Shown in pieces: positions 13,708 to 16,893 of a DNA stretch of 64,000 nucleotides. The stretch is from Streptomyces aurantiacus (lineage in GTDB: Bacteria; Actinomycetota; Actinomycetes; Streptomycetales; Streptomycetaceae). The DNA lies in NCBI RefSeq assembly GCF_027107535.1, contig NZ_CP114283.1, positions 1,054,001 to 1,118,000 of the forward strand, given 5' to 3'. The first letter of the stretch is position 1. Each line of letters begins with the position of its first letter. Made by a program: the position numbers and the translations under genes. The notes under the pieces were generated by a model, which saw only the letters and a list, made by a program, of their open reading frames with translations, ran no database searches and was not told where the DNA came from.

Positions 13708-13734
13708 TGCTGCTGCTTGCTACCTTTGAGGGAA

Positions 13735-13775
13735 CCCGACGAGACGCGCCGTACCGGGGCAGGACAAGACGACGC
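13735..13775 (+). ncRNA. Guanidine-III riboswitch (ykkC-III class)
   Basis: The 41-nt stretch can be aligned end to end with the Thermobifida fusca guanidine-III aptamer as I remember it. The invariant blocks GACGAG, GCGCCGUACC and CAGGACAAGACG are kept. About six positions differ, and two of them are a compensating pair in the first helix (C3-G22 in place of G3-C22). The pseudoknot partner CGC (39-41) is kept; one pair (C15/A38) is not Watson-Crick. It lies 31 bp before the start codon of an SMR exporter with the guanidinium-transport glutamate. Such riboswitches turn on guanidine export; the mode (translation or termination) is not shown. Confidence 0.9.
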
Positions 13776-13806
13776 ACCCCTGTTGATTCCTTCACGGAGG
13801 TGCCTG

Positions 13807-14127
13807 ATGGCCTGGGTTCTGCTTGTCGTCGCCGGTCTGCTCGAGGTGGGCTGGTCGATCGGGATGAAGTACACGGAGGGTTTCACCCGGCTGGTGCCCA
13901 GTGTTCTCACCGGGACGGGCATCGTCGCCAGCATGTTCCTGCTGTCGTACGCGGCGAAGTCGTTGCCCATCGGTACCGCGTACGGGGTGTGGGTGGGTAT
14001 CGGTGCGGCCGGGGCGGCGGTGTTCGGTATGGCGGTGCTCGGTGAACCGGTGACCGCCGCCCGGATCTTCTTCGTCTGTCTCCTGCTGGTGGCTGTCGTC
14101 GGTCTGAAGGCGACCTCGGGGCACTAG
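13807..14127 (+). CDS. gdx: SMR-family guanidinium exporter (Gdx/SugE)
   Basis: A 106-residue protein with four helices of the small multidrug resistance family. Glu13 in VAGLLEVGWSIGMKYTEGF is the conserved proton/substrate glutamate, and the WSIGMKYTEG motif is the SugE/Gdx type rather than the EmrE/QacE type. Members export guanidinium in exchange for protons. The guanidine-III riboswitch directly upstream confirms the role. GGAGG (13796-13800) sits seven bases before ATG 13807. Its TAG stop is part of the left arm of the following hairpin element. Confidence 0.95.
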   Translation: MAWVLLVVAGLLEVGWSIGMKYTEGFTRLVPSVLTGTGIVASMFLLSYAAKSLPIGTAYGVWVGIGAAGAAVFGMAVLGEPVTAARIFFVCLLLVAVVGLKATSGH

Positions 14128-14292
14128 GGGGTGTTTTGAAAGCCCCGCACAGTACCCACGGCGCCCGGCACGCACCCCCGCCGCACCGGCCGAAGACCCA
14201 AGTACGTCCAGTACGAGGGCTTTCGTCCGGCACGCCGAGGCCACGCACCGAACACCGCGGGCACCGCACAGGACTTTCAAAACACCCCCTAG
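14124..14292. repeat. 169-bp hairpin element with perfect 19-bp terminal inverted repeats (MITE-like)
   Basis: The ends are ctagggggtgttttgaaag (14124-14142) and its exact reverse complement (14274-14292). Inside, the two arms remain alignable almost to a small loop near 14205. Nearly all differences between arms are transitions of one polarity, which keep G-U pairs in a minus-strand RNA. It begins within the gdx stop codon and ends 23 bp before the PBP stop codon, so it lies between convergent genes and may also act as a terminator. It encodes nothing. Confidence 0.8.
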
Positions 14293-14314: not shown

Positions 14315-16696
14315 TCACGGGAAGTCTCCGAACGTGGTGCCCGTGCCGCCGTCCTGGCCGTCCGTCGTGCCTCCGTCGGTCGTCGTGCCGCCGTCGCCGG
14401 TGGTGCCGCTCGCTCCGTCGCCGGTGGTGCCGCCGTCGGTGGTGGTGCCACCGTCCGTGCCCGTGCCGCCGTCCGTGCCGTCCGTCGTGCCGCCGTCGCC
14501 GGTGGTGCCTCCGTCGGTCGTGGTGCCGCCGTTGTCCTGGCCCTGGGTGCCGCCCGGGGGTTCCTCGCCGCCGGTGGTCGTCCCGCCGTTGTCCTGGCCG
14601 GCCGTGGCGGGCTCCTCCTCGTCCGGGTCCGCCGGCGGGAGCTGCTGTTCGTCGGCGCCCGGCTGGATCCTGAGGTCGAAGTCCTGGACGGCCACGCCCT
14701 TGAGCGCGGCCTTCGTGTACTGGGCCCAGATCTGGGCCGGGTACCCGCCGCCGTTGATGCGCTGTTGTCCGAGCGCCCCGTACAGCTCCTTGTGGACGCC
14801 CGTGTCGGGGTCCTGGCCCATCACGGCGACGACGGTGGCGAGGTTCGGGGTGTAGCCGGCGAACCAGGCCGCCTTGTCGTTCTCCGCGGTGCCGGTCTTG
14901 CCCGCCGCGGGACGTCCCGCGGCCTGCGCGGCCGTGCCGGTGCCGCCCTCGACGACGCTCTGCAGCATCGAGGTCGTCGTGTCGGCGGCCTCGCGGCTCA
15001 CGGCCTGCCAGGTCTTCCGTTCGGGCAGGTCGACGACGTCGGAGCCGTCCTTGGTGATGCTCTCGATCATCCTGTACGTGCCGCGCTTGCCGTGGTTGGC
15101 GAGTGTCGCGTAGGCCTCCGCCATGTCGAGGACGCTGGCCGTGGAGGGGCCGAGCGCGATCGAGGGGGAGGCGTTCAGGTCCGGGGTGTCGGACGGGACG
15201 CCGAGGTCGACGGCCGTCTTCATGACCTTCTCGGGGTCGACGTCCACGGCCATCTGCGCGTACACGGAGTTCACGGACTTGTCCGTGGCGGTGCGGACGG
15301 AGATGTCGCCGTACGAGACCTGGTCCTCGTTCTCCGGGGCGTAGGTGCCGCCCTCCCAGCCTTCCACGGGGCGTTTGTTCGTGCCGTCGTAGACGGTGTT
15401 GGGGGTGATCGTGCGGCCGTCCTGGGTGGTCGAGTCGTTCTGTACGGCCGAGGTGAACACGAACGGTTTGAAGGTGGAGCCGACCTGGTAGTCCCGGCGG
15501 GTGGCGTTGTTGTAGTACTGCTTGGTGTAGTCGATGCCGCCGTACATCGCGAGGACCTTGCCGGACTTGGGGTCGATGGAGGCCCCGCCCGCGCGGACGT
15601 AGTTGTCGACCTTGCGGTTCTTCTTGTCGAGTTCGTCCATCACCTGGTCGTCGACGGCTTTCACGAACGAGTCCTGCTTGGACTTCTGCAGGGTGGTCGT
15701 GATGCGGTAGCCGCCCGCGTTCAGCGCGTCCTCGTCGAGGATCTTGTTCTCGGTGAGGTAGTCGTTCACGGCCTTCACGATGTAGCCGCGCTGTCCGGAC
15801 ATGCCGGCCGCGATCACCGTCTGCCTGGGCTCGGGGAACTTGGTGCCGGCGCGGTCAGCCGCGGTGAGCCACTTCTTCTTGACCATGCCGTCGAGGACGT
15901 AGTTCCAGCGGGCCAGCGCCGCGGGCTTGTTCTCGGGGTGCGCGACGACGTCGTACTCGCTCGGCGCGTTCAGCAGGGCGGCCAGGTAGGCGCCCTGGGC
16001 GGCTGTGAGGCCCTTCGCGTCGACGCCGTAGTAGGCCTGGGCGGCGGCCTGGATGCCGTAGGCGTTGCGGCCGAAGTAGCTGGTGTTGAGGTAGCCCTCG
16101 AGGATGTCGGCCTTGCTCTTCTCACTGTCCAGCTTGATGGCGATGAAGAACTCCTTGGCCTTGCGGGTGACCGTCTGGTCCTGCGCCAGGTAGTAGTTCT
16201 TCACGTACTGCTGGGTGATCGTCGAACCGGACTGCTTGCCCTTGCCCATGGCGGTGTTCCACGCGGCGCGGACCATCGCCTTGGGATCGACCGCCGACTC
16301 GGTGTAGAAGTCACGGTCCTCGGCGGCCAGTACCGCGTGCTGGGCCTCCTTGGAGATCAGCTCCAGTGTCACGTTCTCCCGGTTGACCTCGCCGTCGCGG
16401 GCGAGCTGGCTGCCGTCGGCGTACAGGTACACGTTGCTCTGTTTGATCGCCGCGGAGTTCGCCGCCGGGATCTTCACCAGGTAGTAACCGAGCGCGAATA
16501 CGCCGACGAGCAGCAGGACCACGGTGACGAAGGCGCCGAGCACCATGCGCCAGGTCGGGATCAGGCGTCGCCATCCGGTGCGCCTGGGGCGTTTGGGCTT
16601 CTTGCCGGGTGCGTCCGGGGCCGCCGCTGTGGCGGCCCCGGGTTCCCTCGGTGCCCAGCCCTCGCTCGGCTGCTGCGGCTGCGGCTGGTCGTTCAT
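14315..16696 (-). CDS. Bifunctional class A penicillin-binding protein (PBP1A type)
   Basis: A 793-residue peptidoglycan synthase. A cytoplasmic Pro/Gly-rich N-terminus precedes one TM helix (about 50-73). The GT51 glycosyltransferase domain shows AAEDRDFYTESAVDPKAM and GSTITQQYVKNYYL. The transpeptidase domain shows the SxxK serine in VGSTFKPF, SVN in DKSVNSVYAQ and the KTG triad in AAGKTGTAEN. The last about 110 residues are a low-complexity tail of Gly-Thr-Asp repeats (GGTTTDGGTTGDGG), outside the membrane. It polymerises and cross-links glycan strands. The start ATG (16694-16696) follows a region with tandem gtacgcc repeats. Confidence 0.95.
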   Translation of the reverse strand: MNDQPQPQQPSEGWAPREPGAATAAAPDAPGKKPKRPRRTGWRRLIPTWRMVLGAFVTVVLLLVGVFALGYYLVKIPAANSAAIKQSNVYLYADGSQLARDGEVNRENVTLELISKEAQHAVLAAEDRDFYTESAVDPKAMVRAAWNTAMGKGKQSGSTITQQYVKNYYLAQDQTVTRKAKEFFIAIKLDSEKSKADILEGYLNTSYFGRNAYGIQAAAQAYYGVDAKGLTAAQGAYLAALLNAPSEYDVVAHPENKPAALARWNYVLDGMVKKKWLTAADRAGTKFPEPRQTVIAAGMSGQRGYIVKAVNDYLTENKILDEDALNAGGYRITTTLQKSKQDSFVKAVDDQVMDELDKKNRKVDNYVRAGGASIDPKSGKVLAMYGGIDYTKQYYNNATRRDYQVGSTFKPFVFTSAVQNDSTTQDGRTITPNTVYDGTNKRPVEGWEGGTYAPENEDQVSYGDISVRTATDKSVNSVYAQMAVDVDPEKVMKTAVDLGVPSDTPDLNASPSIALGPSTASVLDMAEAYATLANHGKRGTYRMIESITKDGSDVVDLPERKTWQAVSREAADTTTSMLQSVVEGGTGTAAQAAGRPAAGKTGTAENDKAAWFAGYTPNLATVVAVMGQDPDTGVHKELYGALGQQRINGGGYPAQIWAQYTKAALKGVAVQDFDLRIQPGADEQQLPPADPDEEEPATAGQDNGGTTTGGEEPPGGTQGQDNGGTTTDGGTTGDGGTTDGTDGGTGTDGGTTTDGGTTGDGASGTTGDGGTTTDGGTTDGQDGGTGTTFGDFP

Positions 16697-16724
16697 CGTG
16701 TGCCGGACTCCCGTTTCGCGTCGT

Positions 16725-16763
16725 ACGCCTCGTACGCCCTGGTACGCCTTGTGCGCCCCTCCC
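16725..16763. repeat. Short tandem 'gtacgcc' repeats upstream of the PBP gene
   Basis: Four imperfect copies of an approximately 10-bp unit (cgtacgcct, cgtacgccct, ggtacgcctt, gtgcgcccct) lie 29-67 bp upstream of the PBP start codon on its coding side. It may be an operator or simple-sequence slippage. Confidence 0.5.
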
Positions 16764-16893
16764 TTTGAAGACTGTCGCATCCGGTGATTCGTTCCCGGTG
16801 CGAGGCACGCGTCGGGCGGGAAATTGCCTGGCACGTGGCGGGGCCCCGCGGCTAGGCTCTTTCGCTTTGGCTCGTGGCGGTCGAAGGGGGCCC

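Follow-up and report, generated by a model that had tools for sequence, protein, structure and literature searches.

MITEs are usually described as deriving from a single parent transposon. In the IS630/Tc1-mariner group, a TA dinucleotide is duplicated upon insertion, as stated in PMC2170065, and the preference of IS630 for a TA within CTAG is given by a 1991 title among the references of that paper. The transcripts of MITEs form stable stem-loops according to a review (PMC10969869), and the human Made1 element has been described as the origin of a microRNA family (PMC1784062). Hairpins in mRNA are also reported for the Correia repeat enclosed elements (CREE) of Neisseria, together with their binding or cleavage by RNase III (PMC2649163). 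For stem-loop families, the ability to fold is described as generally common to both strands, save where G-U pairs are essential (PMC2267715).

The element described here lies in a stretch of 64,000 nucleotides from Streptomyces aurantiacus (the window). Judged by its sequence, it looks like an IS630-type MITE: multiple copies exist, and there is no transposase gene inside its 163 bp. The IS630-type MITE family to which it belongs is real and widespread, with an interior that resembles an RNA and is under selection for pairing on one strand. Within the open-licence literature, searched by word match and not by meaning, no account of the family was found.

The hairpin and its insertion site

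The earlier note, made from the letters of the window, had claimed a 169-bp hairpin with perfect 19-bp ends and differences at about 22 of the next 57 positions. Alignment of the two arms confirmed this geometry: the arms are separated by 5 nt, their outermost 19 positions are identical, and 24 differences are found over 82 positions, 22 of them within the next 57. The claimed polarity was borne out as well. Of the 19 transitions, 18 run in one sense (10 C/T and 8 A/G) and a single G/A runs in the opposite one (two-sided binomial P = 7.6e-5). These 18 one-way transitions leave G-U pairs in the minus-strand RNA and A-C mismatches in the plus-strand RNA. In the minus-strand RNA almost every stem base is paired, and it folds at -143 kcal/mol (z -17), compared to -84.8 kcal/mol (z -8.3) for the plus-strand RNA; none of 200 shuffles folded as well as either strand. 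The hairpin was rejected as an intrinsic terminator because the sequence at the window site has no run of T (U in the RNA) 3' of the stem on either strand. No Rfam family reached its gathering score in the window or in eight loci. The best match below threshold was the microRNA precursor MIR1437, with 62.5 bits against 168 (E 1.5e-10).

The gene directly upstream of the element encodes an SMR-type transporter and is preceded by a guanidine-III riboswitch (Table 1). This SMR-family protein is likely a guanidine exporter. On the other side, the gene of a penicillin-binding protein lies on the opposite strand and faces the element. The SMR gene ends in a TAG stop codon that is part of the CTAG at the left edge of the element. 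An empty site could be read in one relative (L269), where GGGGCACTAGCCG corresponds to both window flanks joined by a single CTAG. Seventeen relatives were fetched at the SMR gene (L266-L282) with the stretch after the stop codon printed: the element is absent there in all 16 that are readable, and the 17th reads N. In most other relatives of this set the stop codon of the SMR gene is TGA.

Table 1. Coordinates of the element, its parts and its neighbours in the window.
Feature	Position	Strand	Remark
Guanidine-III riboswitch	13718..13778		ahead of SMR gene
SMR-type transporter gene	13807..14127		PF00893
Hairpin, 169 bp	14124..14292
Left hairpin arm	14124..14205
Right hairpin arm	14211..14292
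Left copy of duplicated TA target	14125..14126		inside TAG stop codon of SMR gene
Mobile unit (MITE), 163 bp	14127..14289	-	strand with the stable RNA hairpin; ends set by family TA duplication pattern
Left terminal inverted repeat	14127..14142	+	GGGGGTGTTTTGAAAG; no G-U polarity among copies
Core	14159..14260	-	102-nt RNA hairpin, 44 pairs in family consensus; common to copies with many different terminal repeats
Apical loop	14206..14210	-	TGGAC, flanked by two GTAC arms
Right terminal inverted repeat	14274..14289	-	from sequence; no G-U polarity among copies
Right copy of duplicated TA target	14290..14291
Penicillin-binding protein gene	14315..16834		opposite strand

Ends, relatives and distribution of the family

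The copies have in common a core of about 100 bp, which is combined with 12 end motifs; several of these co-occur in the home genome. The motifs were matched with 3 mismatches allowed, and several of them have identical first bases. CTAG stands at both edges in 140 of the 236 end pairs, a set that includes some spurious pairings, mainly of type 9 (as does the set of 221 spans used below). The frequent exceptions, CTAG with CTAA and TTAG with CTAG, are those expected if TA is duplicated and is preferably preceded by C and followed by G, the signature of IS630/Tc1-mariner elements. Neither CTAG pattern is found in 78 of the 236 pairs, some of them spurious or decayed. From this family pattern the TA at each edge can be taken as the duplicated target, and the mobile unit is thereby refined to the 163 bp of Table 1.

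Two of the end motifs (types 2 and 9) match annotated IS630 transposons. Type 2 ends are carried by a transposon of 1,237 bp in NZ_CP109164 together with a protein annotated as IS630 transposase with a DDE_3 domain. A 129-base stretch beginning with end type 9 matched 41 records; in 10 of the 15 that are listed, it is covered by an IS630 transposase annotation. For type 1, to which the window's own ends belong, matches were obtained in 4 of 150 genomes, none of the 10 places listed pairs at transposon length, and no parent transposon was found in the plasmid collection. A composite transposon, made up of two inverted copies about 1.2 kb apart (L162), was rejected since the enclosed open reading frame is by eye no transposase. 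A candidate parent of 944 bp (L131) was likewise rejected, as by eye no reading frame resembles a transposase.

The home genome contains 7 matches to the core model at six places. A BLAST survey of the genus returned at least one match in 221 of 295 genomes at E up to 0.001, some of them short and close to this limit; at most two candidates were scored per genome, so copy numbers are lower bounds. With a covariance model of the core, 131 of the 197 genomes surveyed from the order gave matches, spread over 3 of 6 genera. In a class-wide draw of 148 genomes from 81 genera the same model matched 7, every one of them in the home genus. All 80 stretches listed from a GTDB pattern scan, out of at least 119, are from Streptomyces or Kitasatospora. 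Twelve plasmid records match (10 from Streptomyces and 2 from Embleya), and the phage records gave no match to the element. Some genomes (G275, G317, G411) contain many copies of equal score, which suggests recent bursts.

Truncated copies were followed in one genome (G012). Of its 222 places with at most one mismatch, 100 exact ones were listed, and 44 type-9 ends among these are unpaired, 40 of A-type and 4 of G-type (places examined: L307-L318, L326 and L331-L350). Among the 32 A-type ends examined, 18 belong to truncated copies, 4 to fragments of an IS630 transposon and 2 to internal deletions; the other 8 were taken as longer copies with a degenerate far end, not all of them traced to that end. 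Two of the 4 G-type ends are truncated. Retro-insertion was not adopted as the source of these truncations. A TA is present at the broken end in only 4 of the 18 copies, and 8 of the 18 are exactly 16 bp long, the length of the search pattern, so that shorter ones are invisible. In addition, the A/G labelling has exceptions (AA or GG in 6 of 28 pairs), and the relatives that were searched are too distantly related to offer a clean empty site. The four transposon fragments (L326, L334, L340 and L346) are identical 127-bp left ends at different sites, all broken at one base within the apparent start of the transposase gene.

Other variants concern the interior. A second small palindromic repeat (GGGGGTCCCCCC...TGGGGGA) is found within an arm in L002, L005, L024, L025 and L330. 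In some end types an extra small hairpin (e.g. CCGCCCGAAGGGCGGGC) occurs in the 5' RNA arm only and gives a three-way junction (L004, L005, L032, L297 and L330). Copies with intact type-1 ends and a deleted centre were found at L302 (about 107 bp) and at several places in genome G007. As a guess, direct repeats of GTGCCGG in both arms may guide this deletion.

Strand-specific pairing and the selected molecule

The earlier note had proposed a search for other Streptomyces copies and for the persistence of the polarity among them; the element is not unique, and the polarity holds. Copies were oriented by homology or by the loop motif, independent of folding energy. The strand defined by the loop is the better fold in 220 of 221 distinct spans from the 12 end motifs, and the median energy gap between the strands ranges from 21 to 46 kcal/mol by end type.

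Of 246 placed cores 210 are unique, and the 162 with at most 6 gaps were used for substitution counts, by parsimony over the 44 pairs on a tree that was itself built with this short alignment. Changes from a Watson-Crick pair led to G-U in 106 cases, to A-C in 22, to some other mismatch in 80 and to a different Watson-Crick pair in 56. G-U pairs went back to Watson-Crick in 76 cases and to another mismatch in 22. Covariation was assessed on 70 cores of exact model length out of 78 without gaps. Here, 97.0% of cells pair, compared to 91.0% in shuffles, and changes on both sides account for 145 cells over 20 pairs, compared to 34.8 cells in shuffles; none of 500 shuffles reached the observed values. 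Structures slid along the alignment paired at 49.3% or less. The pair of columns 35 and 71 is unpaired in 31 of the 70 cores and that of columns 12 and 94 in 10. Several G-U pairs are near-invariant (e.g. in 68 and 69 of the 70 cores), which could be conservation of sequence in place of pairing. Overall, the substitutions indicate strand-specific pairing selection.

The terminal repeats behave differently. Across 34 distinct sequences of type 1, the outermost 16 pairs hold 9 G-U and 6 A-C cells (P 0.61), a small number of cells from sequences chosen via the end motif, which restricts variation at the ends. In the same sequences, the next 16 pairs (the outer arms) hold 165 G-U and 7 A-C cells, and the core 283 and 10. 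From this absence of polarity at the ends and its presence inside, it follows that the ends act as double-stranded DNA (presumed transposase sites) and that the interior alone acts as a one-strand fold.

We consider it probable that the element is a non-autonomous member of the IS630 (Tc1/mariner-type) group with an interior payload held as a minus-strand hairpin by selection, the molecule being RNA. The first of the two explanations in the earlier note, selection for a hairpin on this strand, finds support in the copies of the genus, in their partner-dependent rates and covariation. The data are probably best read as a structured RNA carried by a transposon, in preference to single-stranded DNA. 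The terminal repeats would serve as double-stranded sites for transposases acting in trans, as the TA duplication and the IS630 transposons sharing ends with two other end types suggest. The minus strand of the payload, when transcribed, would form one long hairpin, and selection would retain this fold while the DNA arms diverge through G-U pairs. Such divergence may also avoid the instability of a perfect DNA palindrome. Ends would have been swapped around the core. We favour an RNA of the element itself as a dsRNA-like module, a protein-binding hairpin or a target for cleavage by a protein such as RNase III, that may aid the persistence of the element. More tentatively, and as a possibility to which we give less than even weight, the family may be a mobile RNA gene: the structured RNA would be the constant passenger of many IS630 ends, swapping repeats to suit the transposase present, and would itself be the unit of selection.

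The selected molecule could instead be the minus strand as a single-stranded DNA hairpin in replication or transposition of the element, which we regard as rather unlikely. DNA, too, tolerates a G-T mismatch more readily than A-C, and folding of the window element with DNA parameters keeps the order of the strands (-68.7 and -44.5 kcal/mol). The truncated copies of G012 mostly retain the minus-strand 3' end (18, all of A-type, against 2 among the unpaired ends examined), as if minus-strand synthesis had stalled. However, the ends are of the IS630 kind, the studied members of which cut and paste double-stranded DNA and duplicate TA, and the terminal repeats are without polarity.

A role for the host, with the hairpin terminating or stabilising the transcripts of the adjacent gene as proposed for ERIC and Correia elements, appears improbable. 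Gene calls by a simple script classified 192 copies and left 4 unclassifiable, after removal of copies whose flanks are repeated or that lie close to a locus end. The location of the copies fits such a role: 184 of the 192 are intergenic and 60 of these lie between convergent genes (raw counts), and the window copy follows directly on the SMR stop codon. In Streptomyces the transcripts of convergent genes are reported to overlap frequently (PMC3765725), so both strands of the element may be transcribed at such sites. The remaining intergenic copies are in tandem with the stable strand antisense (59) or sense (39) or lie between divergent genes (26), and 7 of the 8 copies within genes are antisense. 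However, the stable strand shows no excess in the sense orientation (40 sense and 66 antisense, P 0.015). This misfits a sense 3'-UTR role for host genes, and it suggests that strong hairpins are mildly disfavoured within a host message. The missing U run 3' of the window hairpin also speaks against this role.

The second explanation of the earlier note, C-to-T deamination of one exposed strand (here with A-to-G included) in the absence of selection, is insufficient alone and very improbable. C-to-T is indeed the commonest minus-strand transition (83 events opposite G), and C-to-T opposite G and A-to-G opposite T proceed at 0.35 each. A one-strand mutation bias would be blind to the partner base, however, and the rates depend on it. 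For T-to-C the rate is 0.04 opposite A (2 events in 51.7 units of exposure) and 0.64, 16-fold higher, opposite G (47 in 73.5), and G-to-A is 4-fold commoner at the wobble partner T (23 in 73.5, 0.31) than opposite C (19 in 233.9, 0.08). A-U pairs changed to G-U 18 times and to A-C only twice, and 83 double changes were counted, as were compensatory swaps between G-C and C-G and between A-U and G-C. Deamination or a general strand mutation bias as sole cause is rejected on these partner-dependent rates. Least credible of all is a founder copy that was asymmetric by chance and kept through common descent: the core is shared by descent and several G-U pairs hardly vary, but derived changes are themselves biased (106 against 22), the arms co-vary and the polarity is kept in divergent families.

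Comparison with known systems

MITEs are commonly regarded as transposon ends and little else; in this family the interior shows the evolution of a structured RNA and the ends do not. The two parts form an internal control, for which the genus supplies many replicates, and selection on RNA as opposed to DNA tolerance of bacterial hairpin repeats becomes directly testable. In Streptomyces, measurements of how transcripts respond to the loss of RNase III are already available (PMC3765725).

One of the closest likenesses is to the IS630-family (Tc1/mariner) MITEs. Like these, the element is short and without an internal transposase gene, has terminal inverted repeats, a duplicated TA and the CTAG preference, and relatives of two end types other than its own have an IS630 transposase and identical ends. 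It differs in its long conserved interior, which occurs with 12 end motifs and is kept as a one-strand fold. The CREE of Neisseria are also small inverted-repeat elements with a hairpin-forming transcript, but their hosts are unrelated, and RNase III action is reported for CREE. The Made1 MITE with hsa-mir-548 in human offers another RNA hairpin from a MITE with a proposed function. In that case, however, the eukaryotic RNA-interference machinery is involved and the element is a nearly perfect palindrome, polarity going unmentioned in the abstract of PMC1784062.

ERIC of the enterobacteria is likewise an intergenic imperfect palindrome and, as far as the folds compared tell, has a weak preference for G-U pairs on one strand. 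Five E. coli copies at four genomic places, among eight fetched (L391, L392, L395, L397 and L398), have 3-4 G-U pairs in the fold of one strand and 0-1 in that of the other, with a gap of 8-15 kcal/mol. The view that polarity is unusual for a MITE therefore stands in degree but not in kind: the 3-4 G-U pairs and 8-15 kcal/mol of ERIC compare to 18 one-way transitions and 58 kcal/mol in the window element.
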